Source: Desulfobacterales bacterium (GTDB taxonomy: Bacteria > Desulfobacterota > Desulfobacteria > Desulfobacterales > JAHEIW01). Taken from it: DNA of 43,663 bases. A model generated the notes under the pieces. The model made no database searches and had not been told where the DNA came from. It saw only the letters and a program-made list of their open reading frames with translations. The stretch is from NCBI GenBank assembly GCA_030066985.1, contig JASJAN010000029.1:1-43663 (forward strand), read 5' to 3'. Positions 95 through 36,744 of the stretch are shown piece after piece (within the stretch, counting starts at the first letter, position 1; every line of letters starts with the position of its first letter). The position numbers were made by a program, and so were the translations under genes.

Positions 95-434
95 GACAGG
101 ATTAACAGGATTTTCAGGATTATATTTTTCTTTCTCACTTTCCGGATGGAAGTGAGAATACTCAATCCGCCTGCGGCGGAAATCTACCCATTTATCTCCG
201 GGCCAGTAGTATAATTTTCCTAAACATTATCACTTTCACACCGCGTTTTTATATTTCAAAATAGATGAAGCTATTGGATTACTGAAATTACTATGTTTCA
301 TTACTACACAGCTTGTTTTACTTTAGCTGTATGTTGTGATTCCTTTTTTATTCGCCGCAGGCGATTGGGGTTTGGTCGCTCTCATCCGGAGAGCGACCAA
401 AAGGAAAAATCCAATTTATCCTGTAAATCCTGTC
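95..434. repeat. Structured inverted-repeat element, copy A
   Basis: A 340-bp element bounded by an array of the 9-mer GACAGGATT at the left (95-121) and its inverse at the right (418-434). Inside the left end is a hairpin of about 12 bp (starting TTTCTCAC, loop CGGAT) and a small hairpin with arms CCGCC and GGCGG around TGC (167-179). At the right are a small hairpin TCGCC/GGCGA around GCA (352-364) and a perfect 13-bp stem (371-383 with 389-401) with loop ATCCG. The core shows no convincing gene and is nearly identical to copy B. The rest of 1-557 holds no gene that I can support. The element looks like a non-autonomous mobile or structured repeat; its function is unknown. Confidence 0.85.
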
Positions 435-557
435 TAAAAAAATCCTAACATCTACACTCTGTTTGCCTCTGGTATATTGTTACTTTGTTTATGCTCAGTC
501 CACAGTCCTCAGCACTCAGTCCTTTTTTCCCTGACACCTGAACACCGAAACCTAGTC

Positions 558-2450
558 TTATTGTTTGAGCATCTGAGATAGCGTGCTGCTGAGGTTGGCA
601 AGCTCCACCGGCTTGGTGAGAAAGGTTGACACCGCATTTTTTACACGGTCGCCGAATTCATTCAGACTCGTGACTTCATATCCGGTAACAAAGGCGATCC
701 GGGCATCCGGATTCAGATCCAGAATCTTTTCGGCACAGCTGCCCCCATCCATTTCCGGCATATTGATATCCAGCAGGACGATATCCGGTTTGTTTGCGCT
801 GTACTGTCTAATGGCTTCCTGGCCGCTGATGGCAATTGCCGATTGATATCCCAGGCTGTCGAGCAAATTCTGCATGGCCCTTAAAATTTCTTCTTCGTCA
901 TCGACCACCAGAATGGTCTCACCGTTGCCGTAGGCAATTTCTTGCGTCCGATACGGCATGTCCGCAATTTCAGCACCGGCGTCCACCAGAGGAAATGTCA
1001 TCACAATGCGTGTGCCCTTTTTGGGTTTGGAATCAATATGAATCAGGCCGTCATGGCTTTTGATGATACCGTATGTGGTTGACAGCCCCAGACCTGTTCC
1101 CTTGCCGATGGGTTTCGTCGTAAAAAAGGGATCAAAGCATTGCTCGACAGTTTTGCGGTTCATCCCCTGCCCGTTGTCGGATACGATCAATTCAGCGTGC
1201 TTGCCTATCTGCCGGGCCTGGAGGAGCAACTGCCCTCCGGCAGGCATAGCATCGCGAGCGTTGTTGCAAAGATTCATCAACGCCTGGCTCAGACCGGAAT
1301 AATCGCCGCGTATCGGTAGGGAATCGGGTAAATCAATTTGAATATCAATTTTCTTTTCAAATGATTTTTTGATGAGCTCATAGGTTTCCTCGGTCACCTT
1401 GACCAAATCCACCGTGCTGAATTCTTTGGCCATTTGTTTGCGTGAAAATTGCAGCAAACCGTCGACCAGACCGGCGCCGCGCCTGACAGATTGGCTGATG
1501 CGCTCGGTGATCTCAGTGATATCCTTATTTTCCTTGTTGTTCATCTGAATCACCTGCGTGTTGACCAATACCTCGGTTAGGGTGTTTCTGAAATTGTGGG
1601 CCACGCCGGCAGCGATGGTGCCGATGGCCTCCATTTTCTGAACATGCTGCAGACGCATTTCCAGCTGTTTGCGCTCGGTCACATCGGTGATCAGCAGAAT
1701 GGTGGTCAGGGGCTCCCCCTTTACAGGTATGCATGAGATGGCCACCAGACGACCGCCCAGTTCAATCGGATTTTTGGCACCGATTTCAATTCGTTTTTCG
1801 TCTCCGGACTTTAAAACGGCAGCCAGTTTATCCCGAATGCTGCTATCAAATAAATCCGGTGGGTAGGAAGCCAGCAGATCCCCTTTATCCAACCCGAACA
1901 TCTCGACCGCACTGGCATTGGCGTACACCACCTTGCCCGAAAACACCTCCAGGATACCTTCGGACATGCTCTCCAGAATGGTTTCCAGGTGGTGGTTGCG
2001 AGACAGCAGCTCTTTGGTCAGCTGCCGGGCATAGACGTTTTCAAGACCCTTGATGGGTTTGGATTCATCATCCTGGCTTGGCGTTTCCGAGGCTTCGATG
2101 GCGGCCAGCACATGCTTGCCCATTTTGTCAAAAGGCCCTTTGGCGATGTAAGCATCAGCGCCGATTTCGGTGTGGTCAAAATCGAGCTCGGCTACCGCAG
2201 CCGACAAAATCACCAGATAGCAGTCTTTCAGGTGGGGCATTTTTCGGACAATATGGCACAACTTGTCCCCATCGATCTTGGGCATGATCAGGTCAAAGAA
2301 CATGATATCCGGATAAAAGGACGTCAGCAGGTTCAAGGCGGCAAACCCGTCCTGGGCCGTCGCCACTTCGTGACCTTCTTTTTCCAGCAAATCACTTGCA
2401 AATTTTAACAGCACCCGATCATCATCAACCAGCAAAATCTTCTTCTTCAT
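558..2450 (-). CDS. Hybrid sensor histidine kinase, REC-PAS-HisKA-HATPase-REC
   Basis: A 630-residue cytoplasmic two-component protein with no membrane segment. Order: receiver domain (1-120, phospho-acceptor D53 in FFDLIMP), PAS domain (about 150-260), HisKA helix with H285, HATPase domain (N box around N396, DNGQGM at 425-430, GKGTGLGL at 449-456), and a C-terminal receiver (about 511-630, D561 in LLDINMP). It starts at an ATG. The HisKA motif reads H-N-F-R-N where this family usually has H-D-F-N-N, so the acidic residue after the histidine is Asn; this may weaken autokinase activity. The N-terminal receiver suggests input from another kinase or a phosphorelay. The gene is flanked by two nearly identical structured repeats. 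Target and signal are unknown. Confidence 0.93.
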   Translation of the reverse strand: MKKKILLVDDDRVLLKFASDLLEKEGHEVATAQDGFAALNLLTSFYPDIMFFDLIMPKIDGDKLCHIVRKMPHLKDCYLVILSAAVAELDFDHTEIGADAYIAKGPFDKMGKHVLAAIEASETPSQDDESKPIKGLENVYARQLTKELLSRNHHLETILESMSEGILEVFSGKVVYANASAVEMFGLDKGDLLASYPPDLFDSSIRDKLAAVLKSGDEKRIEIGAKNPIELGGRLVAISCIPVKGEPLTTILLITDVTERKQLEMRLQHVQKMEAIGTIAAGVAHNFRNTLTEVLVNTQVIQMNNKENKDITEITERISQSVRRGAGLVDGLLQFSRKQMAKEFSTVDLVKVTEETYELIKKSFEKKIDIQIDLPDSLPIRGDYSGLSQALMNLCNNARDAMPAGGQLLLQARQIGKHAELIVSDNGQGMNRKTVEQCFDPFFTTKPIGKGTGLGLSTTYGIIKSHDGLIHIDSKPKKGTRIVMTFPLVDAGAEIADMPYRTQEIAYGNGETILVVDDEEEILRAMQNLLDSLGYQSAIAISGQEAIRQYSANKPDIVLLDINMPEMDGGSCAEKILDLNPDARIAFVTGYEVTSLNEFGDRVKNAVSTFLTKPVELANLSSTLSQMLKQ

Positions 2451-2497
2451 AAGCTCAAAACCTTATTGTCTTTGACAAGAACAAATGTTTGTTTTTA

Positions 2498-2840
2498 GAC
2501 AGGATCAACAGGATTTTCAGGATTATATTTTTCTTTCTCACTTCCCGGATGGAAGTGAGAAAACTCAATCCGCCTCCGGCGGAAATCTACCCATTTATCT
2601 CCAGGCCAGTAGTATGATTTTCCTGAACATTATCCCTTTCACACCGCGTTTTTATATTTCAAAATGGATGAAGTTATTGGATTACCGTAATTACTATGTT
2701 TCATTACTACACAGCTTGTTTTATCTTAGCTGTATGTTGTGATTCCTTTTTTATTCGCCGTAGGCGATTGAGTATTTTCAGTTTCTTCTGGAAACTGAAA
2801 ATAAAAAAAATCAAATCTTGTTAATCCTGTTAATCCTGTC
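2498..2840. repeat. Structured inverted-repeat element, copy B
   Basis: A 343-bp element, nearly identical in its core to copy A and in the same orientation. The left array begins GACAGGATC and the right array ends AATCCTGTC. Left hairpin: 12 bp perfect, arms TTTCTCACTTCC and GGAAGTGAGAAA, loop CGGAT. Right small hairpin: TCGCC/GGCGA around GTA (2755-2767). The right large hairpin (2773-2785 with 2791-2803) is a perfect 13-bp stem with loop TTCTG, but its arms (TATTTTCAGTTTC and complement) differ strongly from the equivalent stem of copy A. Together, copies A and B bracket the 558-2450 kinase gene as direct repeats. This accounts for nearly all of the 2451-2884 spacer. Confidence 0.85.
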
Positions 2841-2884
2841 AAAAGAACATCATTTCGTCGTTACTTTGAGCAGTTTGCAGCGCG

Positions 2885-5506
2885 CTAGCCGCTTCGAGCT
2901 ATCTCCCGCGCCAGCTGCTGCAGCTTTTGCGCGACCCGCTCCAGCTGGTCGGCCAGGCTGTTGACGATCTGATCGGCATCGTCCAGTGTCTCCTCACGAC
3001 CCATTTTTTCAAGGGTGTAAGCTGTATCGGCGGCAGCTTCGGCCTGGAAATTACGCAGCATTCCCTTTAGGGAATGTGCGGTGCGGGTCAGGGTTTTGGC
3101 GTCACTGTTCTTGAGAGTATCGCGCAACGTATCGAGCATTTGCGGATAGTCGTTCATGAAGATGTCAACCAGCTCTCCAAAAAGGCTATGATCGTTTTCA
3201 AATGACTTCAGCAACCCATCGAGCTCGGGGCTGCCTGATTTTTGCCCATCGCCGGCCGGGTCAGATTCTTCTTCAGGTGCAGGCGGCACCAGGGCTTCAA
3301 TGGCTTTAAAAAGCTTGTTGGCCGAAATGGGTTTGGACACATAGCTATCCATACCGGCTTCAAGGCAGCGCTCGCGGTCTCCCTCGGTTGCGTATGCTGT
3401 CATAGCGATAATCGGTATGTGACTGCCGGTCTCAGCTTCAATTTTGCGTATTTCCCTCGTGGCCTCAAAACCGTCCATTTCAGGCATCTGGACATCCATC
3501 AGGATAACATCAAACATATCCGGGTCAAATGCGTCCACGGCCTGACGCCCGTTTTCAACCAGAATCGGCTGGAAATTGTTTTTCTCAAGCAGCCGCAAGA
3601 TAAAGGTTTGGTTAAAAGGGGTGTCTTCAGCCACCAGAATTTTTAGGTTCTGCATGAGCGCTCTGATTTTGGATACAGGCGCTTTTGGCGGCTGCGGCTG
3701 CGCTGCCGGTTTCAGATTCAGGGCAACCTGCAACAAATTCAGCATCTCCGGCGGATTGAGCGGTTTTGTGGCACTGGCTTTAATGCCAAGTTCCCCGAAC
3801 TCCGCTTTGCGCTTAAGGTGCGGAAAGGTTAGCATCATGGCCACCCGCAGATCCTCCATATGACGGTTTTTTATCCAGCGTGCCAGGCTGAAGCCATCTG
3901 AGCCGGGCATATCCGAATCAAGAATCACCAGATCAAAGGGCTCCTCGGCAGCGCTGCTTTCCGAAATGATCTGGCGAGCCTCCTCAGCATTGGTGGCAAA
4001 TTGTGCTGTCAGCTGCCAGCTTTCGAGCATCTCTTTGATCAACCGCCTGGCGGCCGCATTGTCATCGACGACAAGGATGCTCGCCCGGTTGAGCCCGTCG
4101 ACCGTCGGCCCTACCGTTGCCAGCGGCTGCTCGGGCAGCCGGCTTAAGGCGGCGGCAAATTCAAAACGGCTCCCTTGTCGGGGCTCACTGGCCACAGTTA
4201 GCTCACCGCCCATTAATTTGACCAGCTGGGACGATACCGCCAGACCCAGTCCGGTTCCGCCATATTGATTGGTTGTTTTGGCGTCCACCTGTTTAAATGC
4301 GCTGAAGATGTCCTTGTGCTTCTCTTTGGGAATACCGATGCCGGTGTCTTCGACCGAAAAATTCAGAACCGCTTTTTTATCGGTGTGCTGCGCGGAGCCT
4401 ACATTGACAAAGATCTCTCCCTCCTCTGTGAATTTTACGGCATTTTCAATCAGGTTGAGCAGGATCTGGCGCAAACGGTCCGGGTCTCCCACAAGGCGAT
4501 CGGGAACATCCGCTGCCACGCGATATGCCAGTTCAAGCCCTTTTGTCTGCGTGCGCATACCCATCATACTGAGCGTATCTTTCATAAAATCCCGCAGTTC
4601 AAAGGGTGCATTTTCCAATTCGAATTTGTCGGCTTCGATTTTGGAAAAATCAAGCAGATTGTTGATCAGCGATAAGAGCGCATAAGCAGAAGAAATAACC
4701 ACATCAAGATCTTCGCGCTGGTCCGAGCGCAGGTCTGTTTCCAGCATCAGCTCAATGAGACCGATGATCGAATTGAGCGGCGTTCGAATTTCGTGGCTCA
4801 TATTCGCCAAAAAACGGCTTTTTTCGCGATTGGCCGCTTCGGCTGCCATTTTGGCCTGTTTAAGGGCCTCCGCCTCTCTGCGCTCAGTAACATCGCGCAA
4901 AAAGCCGCCAAATCCGGTCAGTTCCCCCTTGGCATCGGTTATGGCAACGATGGAAGTCTCCGCAAAGCGGCGTGAATCGTCCCGTCTGATGAAAATGAGA
5001 TCCAATGCTTTAACCGCATCCCTTGTGCGATAAACCTGATTAATGCCATTGAGCAGTTTCTGGGAACTGTCTTCATCCAGATAGGCGCTATGACTCATAT
5101 CCGTCATTTCGACCCGGGAATATCCAAGCAGGTCGCACATGGCGTCATTAAAAAAGGTGAGGTTGCCGGCGATATCAAGCTCGTAGTACCCGTCCGGGGT
5201 GGTTTCAACGATCCGCCGGTAGCGTTCCTCGCTGTCGCGCAGCGCCTGCTCGGTTAATTTGCGCCGATTGACCGTATACTGAGCGTGGGCGCCAAAAATA
5301 ATAAACAGACATAAAATCGTTAATCGGCTCCATATTTCACCGATCCCCGGCCCGACCAGCCGCTGGAAAAAATTAACGTCATATTCGGTGAAAAGGTATA
5401 GAACCGAATCGAAAATAGTGTAGAACAGCGCCAGTCCAAATCCGATCAACACCATTTGATCCCAGATGTGGACCCTTATTTTCCGTTTGATTTCGATGGC
5501 GGTCAT
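2885..5506 (-). CDS. Membrane hybrid histidine kinase, PAS-HisKA-HATPase-REC-REC-Hpt
   Basis: An 873-residue BarA-like phosphorelay kinase. Two membrane segments (about 17-40 and 60-76) bracket a short loop, followed by a helix into a PAS domain (about 92-210), HisKA with H238 in SHEIRTPLN, HATPase (N box around N355, GTGLGL near 417-422), a first receiver (about 475-600, D530), a second receiver (about 620-740, D671 in LMDVQMPEMDG) and a C-terminal Hpt domain with H811 in TAHSLKG. All phosphotransfer residues are present, so an internal His-Asp-His relay is likely. No partner regulator is adjacent. The N-terminal membrane module is clearly related to that of the kinase at 26748-28541. The input signal is unknown. 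Confidence 0.94.
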   Translation of the reverse strand: MTAIEIKRKIRVHIWDQMVLIGFGLALFYTIFDSVLYLFTEYDVNFFQRLVGPGIGEIWSRLTILCLFIIFGAHAQYTVNRRKLTEQALRDSEERYRRIVETTPDGYYELDIAGNLTFFNDAMCDLLGYSRVEMTDMSHSAYLDEDSSQKLLNGINQVYRTRDAVKALDLIFIRRDDSRRFAETSIVAITDAKGELTGFGGFLRDVTERREAEALKQAKMAAEAANREKSRFLANMSHEIRTPLNSIIGLIELMLETDLRSDQREDLDVVISSAYALLSLINNLLDFSKIEADKFELENAPFELRDFMKDTLSMMGMRTQTKGLELAYRVAADVPDRLVGDPDRLRQILLNLIENAVKFTEEGEIFVNVGSAQHTDKKAVLNFSVEDTGIGIPKEKHKDIFSAFKQVDAKTTNQYGGTGLGLAVSSQLVKLMGGELTVASEPRQGSRFEFAAALSRLPEQPLATVGPTVDGLNRASILVVDDNAAARRLIKEMLESWQLTAQFATNAEEARQIISESSAAEEPFDLVILDSDMPGSDGFSLARWIKNRHMEDLRVAMMLTFPHLKRKAEFGELGIKASATKPLNPPEMLNLLQVALNLKPAAQPQPPKAPVSKIRALMQNLKILVAEDTPFNQTFILRLLEKNNFQPILVENGRQAVDAFDPDMFDVILMDVQMPEMDGFEATREIRKIEAETGSHIPIIAMTAYATEGDRERCLEAGMDSYVSKPISANKLFKAIEALVPPAPEEESDPAGDGQKSGSPELDGLLKSFENDHSLFGELVDIFMNDYPQMLDTLRDTLKNSDAKTLTRTAHSLKGMLRNFQAEAAADTAYTLEKMGREETLDDADQIVNSLADQLERVAQKLQQLAREIARSG

Positions 5507-6681: not shown

Positions 6682-7202
6682 TTACTGGTTATTTGTTAAT
6701 AGTTATTGGCCTTGACGCATTGATGTTCACACCCGCTACAAAAACATCAAATAAAGAATGGTAGTAGAAGCTGTCCCCAAAACAGGTGATCACAGTCCCC
6801 GCGTGAATGGGGGATTTCATATATGATTTTTTAAAATTGTTTGTGCACAATATAAAATCTTCTTAGACAGGATTTACAGGATTATCAGGATCCTTTTGGC
6901 CGTTCTCCGGAAGAGAACGGCCAAATCCAATCGCCTGCGACGAGGGTTTCGTGCTTTCATTTAAATGAGCTGGCAATTTATATCATAGGCGCCAGTCCTT
7001 GAGTTAAATTGTATCACCAAAGGTATTTACTCCGCTGAAAGCGGATTGAGTTTAGTCGCTCTCGTCCGGAGAGCGACTAAGAAAAAAATCCTCAATATCC
7101 TGTAGATCCTGTCAAAAATAAATCATAAACGATGGTATTCGAGCATTTCGAATGGGTTCAACTATTCACCAATTAACGAATAACGATTAACAAATAACAC
7201 CA
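6682..7202. repeat. Outer inverted array (TTATTTGTTA class) enclosing copy C
   Basis: Arms at 6682-6710 (units around GGTTATTTGTTAATAG) and 7168-7202 (units around CGATTAACAAATAACACC) are imperfect inverse copies and enclose structured element C, so two repeat classes are nested. The 6671-7458 spacer has no supportable gene. A ten-base palindrome TTGTGCACAA occurs at 6841-6850. The biological role is unknown. Confidence 0.6.
6866..7113. repeat. Structured inverted-repeat element, copy C
   Basis: A 248-bp element with the left array beginning GACAGGATTTACAGGATT and the right array ending GATCCTGTC. Left large hairpin: 13 bp perfect (6895-6907 with 6913-6925, arm TTTGGCCGTTCTC), loop CGGAA. 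Right large hairpin: 12 bp perfect (7052-7063 with 7069-7080, arm TTAGTCGCTCTC), loop GTCCG. Small hairpins: an imperfect one around 6930-6943 and a perfect TCCGCT/AGCGGA around GAA at 7031-7045. The core is shorter than in A and B and resembles the reverse complement of copy D. Confidence 0.85.
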
Positions 7203-35501: not shown

Positions 35502-35749
35502 GACAGGATTTACAGGATTTTGAGGATATATTTCTTAGTCGCCCTCCAGACGAGAGCGACTAAACTCAATCCGCTTTCAGCGGAAAAAAACCTTCGGCCA
35601 TGCAATTTAAGCTTAAAATGGGCTCCTTAGTATTAAAACACCATCTTTGATGGCAAAAGCTCGGTGAAACTCGCCGCAGGCGATAGGGTTTGGCCGTTCT
35701 CTTCCGGAGAACGGCCAAAAGAAATCCTGATAATCCTGTAAATCCTGTC
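35502..35749. repeat. Structured inverted-repeat element, copy D
   Basis: A 248-bp element, the same length as copy C and inverted relative to it. Left large hairpin: 12 positions, one mismatch (35535-35546 with 35552-35563), loop CAGAC. Left small hairpin: TCCGCT/AGCGGA around TTC (35570-35584). Right small hairpin: TCGCC/GGCGA around GCA (35671-35683). Right large hairpin: 13 bp perfect (35689-35701 with 35707-35719, arm TTTGGCCGTTCTC), loop TTCCG. Terminal arrays begin GACAGGATTTACAGGATT and end AATCCTGTC. It fills most of the gap between tRNA-Leu and the Sua5 gene. Confidence 0.85.
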
Positions 35750-36441: not shown

Positions 36442-36461
36442 AGAGTGGATTGATTTTTTTA

Positions 36462-36712
36462 TTAACCGCAGACCCACGCAGACGGACGCTGACCTTTTTG
36501 CCGGTCGACTCGCCCGGCAAAAAACACGTCAATCGCTGCGCGATAATTTTTTAATGTATCTTTTGAATTTAGGTGGTCACTTTAAAATATCGCGGTTATT
36601 TGCTCCCATATAATAAAACCTGTTTGCCCGCAGGGTATGCAGGTTTTCCTCCCGACAGGTCGTCGGGAGGAAAGAATACTGTCTGCGATTGCCTGCGTGA
36701 GTCTGCGGTTAA
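36462..36712. repeat. Structured inverted-repeat element, copy E (different terminal class)
   Basis: A 251-bp element with the same architecture as copies A-D but different ends: TTAACCGCAGAC (36462-36473) and GTCTGCGGTTAA (36701-36712), with ACGCAGACG-type units inside. Left large hairpin: 12 positions, one mismatch (36495-36506 with 36512-36523), loop GACTC. Left small hairpin: ATCGC/GCGAT around TGC (36532-36544). Right small hairpin: TGCCC/GGGTA around GCA (36625-36637, one G-T pair). Right large hairpin: 12 bp perfect (36645-36656 with 36662-36673), loop AGGTC. It fills the gap between the Sua5 and purE genes; no gene inside. Confidence 0.8.
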
Positions 36713-36744
36713 AATCGCTTCCCCAAATTCCTGTCTAAGAAATT

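Follow-up and report, generated by a model that had tools for sequence, protein, structure and literature searches.

How can one long hairpin of a repeated element be rewritten on both arms when the remainder of the element stays nearly the same? This question is raised by two copies of a short element, here named copy A and copy B, in a stretch of 43,663 nucleotides (nt) from a Desulfobacterales bacterium (GTDB lineage Bacteria; Desulfobacterota; Desulfobacteria; Desulfobacterales; JAHEIW01). The stretch, which we refer to as a whole as the window, covers positions 1 to 43,663 of the forward strand of contig JASJAN010000029.1 (NCBI GenBank assembly GCA_030066985.1). On their right sides both copies carry a perfect 13-bp hairpin with a 5-nt loop (TTTGGTCGCTCTC and ATCCG in copy A, TATTTTCAGTTTC and TTCTG in copy B). 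According to the original prediction, the cores of the two copies are nearly identical over more than 200 bp, a single stem distinguishes them, and cassette-like exchange or templated rewriting of the stem explains the difference better than point mutation alone. From the analysis presented here, we consider it likely that the hairpin block was replaced by conversion-like copying from another copy of the element, between short patches that the copies have in common.

Of the 209 core positions (160-368 in copy A, 2563-2771 in copy B), 13 differ between the copies, and the left hairpins show single-base differences only. The right stems differ in 6 of 13 pairs, and every one of these changes is compensated on the opposite arm. 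The probability of at least six changes in 13 at the core rate is 6.8e-05, which disfavors an origin by slow, singly compensated mutations alone. The predicted restriction of the difference to one stem holds only in part, as the stem does differ, but so do the right foot (GGGG versus GAGT), the loop and the outer arm as far as the iterons shared by both copies. Therefore, the changed unit is an end module rather than one stem.

Copies A and B are short, non-coding dispersed elements of the repetitive extragenic palindromic (REP)/REPIN kind. Each end module consists of 9-nt iterons (ACAGGATTT), a hairpin of 12 to 13 bp whose 5-nt loop is mostly CRGAW, then a foot and a further small hairpin, and the iterons at the two ends are in inverted orientation (GACAGGATTAACAGGATT and ATCCTGTAAATCCTGTC in copy A). 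In the 81 contigs of the own genome (G000 in our numbering of genomes), a search with copy A returned 57 matches, and the iteron pattern occurs at 49 sites when up to two mismatches are allowed, versus none for a reversed control pattern. We delineated 25 elements of this genome, and 39 ends from 24 of them, excluding ends with loop insertions or without a clear hairpin, were used to build an end model (R1), which has 50 matches there. Predicted folding of two elements as single-stranded DNA gives an iteron stem, formed by pairing of the inverted iteron ends, and two side hairpins (z -8.6 each), and no long open reading frame (ORF) explains the elements. Terminal repeats of the adeno-associated virus type have a fold like the predicted one, with the likeness lying in shape only.

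The stems of these hairpins covary strongly. Across the 39 ends used for the model, 94.3% of 506 stem cells pair, only two one-sided standard changes are present, and 120 cells are changed on both sides compared with 32.5 in shuffles, a count that is biased because the ends were chosen by their hairpins. The model has 149 matches in several genomes. For the 141 of these that remain when stems with gaps are left out, the 1692 cells comprise 1626 Watson-Crick pairs, 16 G-T pairs and 50 other mismatches; the foot is AATC in 102 of these ends, and the loop is CGGAA, CGGAT, CAGAA or CAGAT in 96. The stem sequence varies while its pairing is kept, and compensated changes build up slowly.

Certain left and right stems recur together, namely TTTCTCACTTCC with TATTTTCAGTTTC (alpha1/beta1), TTAGTCGCTCTC with TTTGGCCGTTCTC (alpha2/beta2) and TGGATCACTTTC with TTTGGTCGCTCTC (alpha3/beta3). 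Copy A breaks this pattern by joining an alpha1 left end to a beta3 right end. The closest relative of its right end is at C63:3989 (contig and position; 92.3% identity over 78 nt), and its outer arm goes along with its hairpin. The right end of copy B groups with beta1 ends, among them C4:201244, which is closest, and ends on C40, C1 and others. Because a relative of the A/B core in a sister species (G003:C206, 72% identity to copy A) carries alpha1 and beta1 stems, parsimony favors copy A as the derived one, and it looks like the changed copy. The difference between A and B most likely arose when one end, with its whole hairpin, was imported as a unit from a different branch of the family.

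Reassortment of this kind is not confined to copy A. When stems are counted that equal the prototypes or differ from them by one change, the genus holds six alpha1/beta1 elements, one alpha1/beta3, two alpha3/beta1 and one alpha3/beta3, with the remaining elements being ambiguous or of other types. An array in G019 (a genome from a different family, with a listed contamination of 9%) likewise combines two left stems, GCCTGCCGGC and CCCGGGTTC, with two right stems, ATTTGGCCGTTC and a CCCGGC type, in every possible way, as read by eye in units 0, 1, 2 and 6 (L1R1, L1R2, L2R2 and L2R1). Mixed combinations recur in G000, G002, G003 and G019. The comparison of copies within the own genome and its relatives, as the original prediction had proposed, reveals hairpin modules that are transferred in blocks among elements whose cores differ, and cassette-like exchange is supported by the lineage match of the right end, by the stem combinations and by the two chromosomal sites described below. 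In some copies an entire hairpin block belongs to another lineage of the family, and this block may or may not include the outer arm or the core. The length of the exchanged block varies: at copy A it comprises hairpin and outer arm, at one site hairpin, core and hairpin, and elsewhere apparently the hairpin alone, so that the predicted exchange of a stem is often an exchange of something larger.

The two stems of one element tend to be unlike each other. The 149 model matches form 52 inverted pairs, one of which was judged false (G000:C38:6446), and 43 own-genus pairs remain after this pair and those from other genera are excluded. In none of the 43 are the left and right stems within two differences, compared with 5.7 expected under random pairing (P 0.002, a generous value because the elements of one family are related).

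Elements that occupy the same chromosomal site in two species provide a test of replacement in place. Among the 43 elements, both flanks match in six cross-species pairs, which form the basis of this comparison; three cross-genome pairs matching at one flank and the match of 35502-35749 to G002:C103:203 were left out. Nine of the 12 hairpins carry zero to two double changes each, for a total of 3 in 108 pairs, and one-sided changes (16 of 108 pairs) outnumber them. In the other three hairpins, 5, 5 and 6 of the 12 pairs are changed on both sides. The probability of five or more changes in 12 is 1.1e-05 at the slow rate and 0.0016 at an assumed rate of 0.08.

These three hairpins lie at two sites. 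At C81:4079 and its counterpart G001:C15:82569, the left hairpins differ by five double changes and no one-sided change. The approximately 37 nt before this hairpin contain five substitutions and a gap, the approximately 31 nt after it contain two substitutions, and both the preceding iterons and the CAATCCGCTTTCAGCGGAATAAAA that follows are alike or identical. It seems from the alignment that this hairpin was swapped alone. At the site 35502-35749, beside a tRNA-Leu gene, both hairpins and the core differ from those in G002:C103, where an alpha1 stem and a beta1-type stem accompany another core, and where the outer left arm, GGATTTTGAAAATA, is similar to GGATTTTGAGGATA, the alpha2 arm of G000. 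The comparison of sister species at the same sites suggests that swaps occur in place, and these two sites support the view that a hairpin may be replaced without a change of chromosomal position.

A possible course of events can be proposed for copy A. Its original beta1 right end was most likely lost to a beta3 end like that at C63:3989, and the replacement would have occurred by gene conversion or by a polymerase switching template to another copy. Copying would begin and end in short common patches, the iterons on the outside and the foot with the small hairpin on the inside, and stalling of replication at the hairpin perhaps provokes it. Exact runs that copy A has in common with other copies of its genome, such as TTTTATTCGCCGCAGGCGATTG on the inside and ATCCTGTAAATCCTGTCTAAAAAAAT on the outside, reach at most 37 nt. 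Runs of this length are short for classical RecA pairing, and gene conversion and a template switch at a stalled fork are therefore equally likely. Whether gene conversion shapes dispersed palindromic repeats is an old question, which reportedly stands in the title of a review from 1988 (listed in PMC3733652).

Several observations weigh against this interpretation. The closest relative of the right end of copy A is 92% rather than 100% identical, and no donor and recipient of a single event were caught. All 46 stems of the paired elements form one network at steps of two differences or fewer, and for this reason very fast compensatory drift is formally possible. Only six orthologous sites supply evidence, two of them with strong differences, and the slow and swapped classes of hairpins were split after the data had been seen. 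The short outer arm may have accompanied the hairpin at C81 and G001:C15, where the right hairpins look decayed, with five one-sided changes. No empty site was found in the relatives searched, so we infer the insertion itself. The sites of A and B are without a cross-species comparison because the best-scoring hits to the neighboring kinase in the relatives searched are distant (about 35-38% identity). The genomes are also draft assemblies.

One competing explanation, which we regard as unlikely, is that ends are reshuffled during transposition, with a transposase or other enzyme joining the left end of one copy to the right end of another, so that the chimera would arise at insertion and not in place. 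The chimeras often do differ by a whole end, and the tandem head-to-tail copies of the G019 array, with their reassorted stems, could recombine or be mobilized together. However, the two sites compared between species keep their flanks and yet differ in their hairpins, once apparently in a single hairpin, and no mobilizing gene was recognized near the ends in the searches made.

These searches covered several gene families. Iterons are present at none of the three Y1_Tnp loci of the own genome and at none of the 30 Y1 loci examined in its relatives, and RAYT was rejected as the mobilizer because no linkage was found at the Y1 loci searched. Proximity was counted in 12 of the 26 iteron-bearing genomes, with 37 of 70 Y1 genes, 59 of 92 IVP (PF05635) genes and all 25 of 25 GxxExxY (PF13366) genes. 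No Y1 gene lies within 1.5 kb of iterons, and one of 37 lies within 3 kb (0.56 expected). Over 58 genomes, Y1 counts correlate weakly with model matches (Spearman 0.28, p 0.03) and not with iterons (0.09). Genome G013 has 11 model matches and no Y1 match, and G016 has 93 iteron sites with neither a model match nor a Y1 match. The 524 ORFs that lie near iterons at the 119 loci listed were clustered, and by eye, without a family search, no transposase was recognized in the 25 largest clusters.

Of the 25 GxxExxY genes, 4 have iterons within 500 bp (0.11 expected; three of the four from one genome) and 7 within 3 kb (0.48 expected), and iterons were found in 5 of 30 GxxExxY loci. Of the 59 IVP genes, 2 have iterons at up to 500 bp (0.35 expected) and 6 at up to 3 kb (1.46 expected, P 0.004); iterons are present in 1 of 30 IVP loci. 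IVP copy number across the 58 genomes has a Spearman correlation, uncorrected for phylogeny, of 0.56 with iterons and 0.63 with model matches, and IVP is present in all 17 genomes with end-model matches versus 28 of the 41 others. We do not adopt IVP as the mobilizer, although it may yet be one, and GxxExxY is a lead. A separate observation is that TCAGAGGTCAGAAGTC-type repeats lie near some IVP four-helix-bundle genes (loci L379, L389, L390, L396 and L324, the last around 3613 and 4040). They occur at 4 of 30 IVP loci, at none of the 30 Y1 and none of the 30 GxxExxY loci, and at one locus each among 11 kinase loci and 19 own element loci.

Some ends are arranged in arrays with small genes, for which the toxin-antitoxin (TA) names used here (RelE-, HigA-, HicB/HicA- and PIN-like) are readings of translations. 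Locus L432 (G019:C99:6300-11500) contains, at 2056-5201, the head-to-tail array of nine units with reassorted stems mentioned above, the last unit being incomplete. In unit 2, RelE- and HigA-like ORFs follow the left end and a seemingly truncated right end and precede an intact right end, and unit 4 has a GxxExxY gene and no right end. Locus L324 (G028:C32:28500-33742) has five model matches, all in one orientation, among small genes that look selfish (GxxExxY twice, IVP, HicB/HicA-like, RelE-like and PIN-like). At L415 (G038:C266) and L421 (G016:C297), a GxxExxY gene is flanked on both sides by inverted iterons.

It is conceivable, if rather improbable, that the ends are interchangeable recombination cassettes of an undescribed enzyme that reads the shape of the hairpin and its loop and not the stem sequence. 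If true, this would be an integron-like system on iteron-hairpin ends, with arrays of TA-like and GxxExxY genes (G019:C99, and similarly G028:C32). Folding ends, head-to-tail arrays and the TA-like genes in one array recall integron cassettes and their attC sites; unlike those cassettes, the units here have two inverted ends.

We consider it very unlikely that slow covariation alone accounts for A and B, which would then stand far apart on a path of singly compensated mutations. The original prediction named a graded series of such changes as the mark of this process, and such series are present within stem families. Examples are the series TTTGGCCGTTCTC, TTTGTCCGTTCTC, TTTGTCTGTTCTC, TTTGGCCGTTATC and the one-step cluster TTGGCCGTTCTC, TTGTCCGTTCTC, TTGTCTGTTCTC, TTGGCCGTTATC, and the single two-step network, the strong covariation and the half-way, one-sided changes in the nine slow hairpins are also as expected. 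A series of this type fails to explain A versus B, where the changed hairpin is accompanied by a foot and an outer arm that have changed too and fit another lineage, and where the stem has changed far out of proportion to the core. Half-way states are a minority of the 1692 cells, and three orthologous hairpins have five to six double changes each against three in all for the other nine. Since graded series occur within the stem families, slow covariation and block exchange both operate.

Different elements that inserted independently into one target site in separate species could mimic replacement in place, and the site at tRNA-Leu, where both hairpins and the core differ, fits this idea. We give it little credence, as the G002 copy at that site has an alpha2-like outer arm beside its alpha1 hairpin, and as the pair C81 and G001:C15 keeps the stretch after the hairpin and the type of the right end while the left hairpin differs. 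Chimeric draft assembly, in which halves of different copies were joined, is most improbable: several assemblies are fragmented (about 440 contigs in G002) and repeats cause misjoins, but the longest exact matches to other copies (37 nt between copy A and other paired copies of the own genome, and 26-37 nt for four further chimeric or changed copies, each within its own genome) are short for a misjoin, and mixed combinations recur in four genomes.

Conversion-like copying of hairpin blocks would act on a repeat family that has likenesses to several known ones. REPs and REPINs are described as short palindromes between genes that form inverted pairs around a spacer, with hairpins that show compensatory changes, and heterodimers with different stems are also reported (PMC3733652, PMC3116915). 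Heterodimeric REPs are perhaps protected from clearance, as suggested in one source (PMC3733652). The elements studied here are likewise short, palindromic, dispersed and present in many copies in their genome; they differ in that their ends are made of 9-nt iterons and their spacer is mostly longer. No GTAG or CGTC tag lies within 6 nt of the hairpin in any of the 141 ends. Each element works like a REP/REPIN type with unlike partners, but because of this lack of a tag, and of RAYT linkage in the loci searched, we do not file the elements under REP/REPIN. A hairpin with conserved loop bases beside conserved flanking bases is also a feature of the RAYT/TnpA-REP (REPtron) system, and for Escherichia coli REP, binding and cleavage are reported to persist after the loop or upper stem is exchanged for its complement (PMC8266576). 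Here, by contrast, G013 and G016 carry end matches or iterons without any Y1 match.

Miniature inverted-repeat transposable elements (MITEs), among them the Correia repeat enclosed elements of Neisseria, are comparable in being short, with inverted ends, a core and alternative ends that may be symmetrical or not (PMC2649163). The present elements share with MITEs their small size, lack of a long ORF and terminal inverted repeats; their sequence and architecture are unlike those of Correia elements, and no parent transposon was found in the searches made. A literature search with four iteron strings returned no related paper, most subscription journals and bioRxiv preprints being outside its scope.

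The coordinates of the features in the window are collected in Table 1.

Table 1. Copies of the element and associated features in the window.
Feature	Positions	Strand	Basis or remark
Copy A, complete element from left to right iterons	95..434	+	
Copy A, left iterons (GACAGGATTAACAGGATTTTCAGGATT)	95..121	+	
Copy A, left hairpin, alpha1 type (TTTCTCACTTTC, loop CGGAT)	131..159	+	Stem slightly imperfect
Copy A, left end, second small hairpin (CCGCCTGCGGCGG)	167..179	+	Read directly
Copy A, small hairpin of the right end (CGCCGCAGGCG) with foot ATTGGGG	353..370	+	Part up to GATTG, common to other copies, taken as inner edge of exchanged block
Copy A, right hairpin, beta3 type (TTTGGTCGCTCTC, loop ATCCG)	371..401	+	In imported block
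Copy A, right outer arm and iterons	402..434	+	Inner part of beta3 lineage; outermost iterons family-wide
ORF of 630 amino acids (aa), similar to sensor kinase and response regulator	558..2450	-	Between A and B, outside the element
Copy B, whole element	2498..2840	+	
Copy B, left hairpin, alpha1 type (TTTCTCACTTCC, loop CGGAT)	2534..2562	+	
Copy B, right hairpin, beta1 type (TATTTTCAGTTTC, loop TTCTG)	2773..2803	+	State common to sister-species relative
Third copy, alpha2 and beta2 stems	6866..7113	-	Opposite orientation
Fourth copy, alpha2 and beta2 stems	35502..35749	+	Adjoins tRNA-Leu

Copies A and B are direct repeats that flank the kinase-like ORF. A segmental duplication of kinase and element was rejected, as the two neighboring ORFs are 25% identical and the flanks beyond the elements are dissimilar by eye. 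An intrinsic terminator was also set aside, since no T run is seen by eye outward of the hairpins. At gathering score, Rfam reports two tRNAs and nothing else in the window, and over positions 60-460 only two microRNA models appear, both far below their cut-offs; a described structured RNA was rejected, as the element has no Rfam match. Iterons of a second class (GTCTGTGTG) lie at about 36450-36730 of the window and at L078 (G000:C20:37275-37520), with hairpins such as TTTCTCCCGAC, and the latter element looks like a chimera of a ACAGGATTT left end and a GTCTGTG right end.

The family extends well beyond this genome. The end model has matches in 17 of 58 genomes, the own genome included, and the iteron pattern is present in 26 of 58. 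Among the matches listed, the bare 18-mer iteron motif occurs in many phyla, archaea included. At least 119 loci across very distant phyla and Methanoperedens archaea carry the motif GACAGGATTTACAGGATT, in many cases as a short inverted pair; among the matches listed, most of these loci have no long hairpin alongside, and some do (L185, L220, L223). A scan of viral contigs found the iteron pattern in 17 stretches, and a plasmid search with copy A as query gave no match.

The loop exceeds 20 nt in 16 of the 149 model matches, one of which, on L071, looks false. These long loops usually contain a second REP-like palindrome (for example GCCTGCCGCGCCATAGCT...AGCGACGGCGG) between CRG and GAW. They were found in the own genome (G000:C60, C40, C63) and in G002 (C89, C103, C436), as well as in G003 (C75, C84, C127, C228, C274), G026 (C277, C173) and G028 (C32). 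The corresponding loci are L062, L061, L069, L300, L295, L305, L284, L286, L287, L289, L283, L314, L313 and L324.

Sites that are occupied in sister species provide a natural test of how these hairpins evolve, in which most drift slowly and some look replaced whole. Two modes of hairpin evolution are thereby told apart, and counts of covariation can be inflated by block exchange. The orthologous sites are also marked places at which ectopic conversion over very short homologies can be measured.

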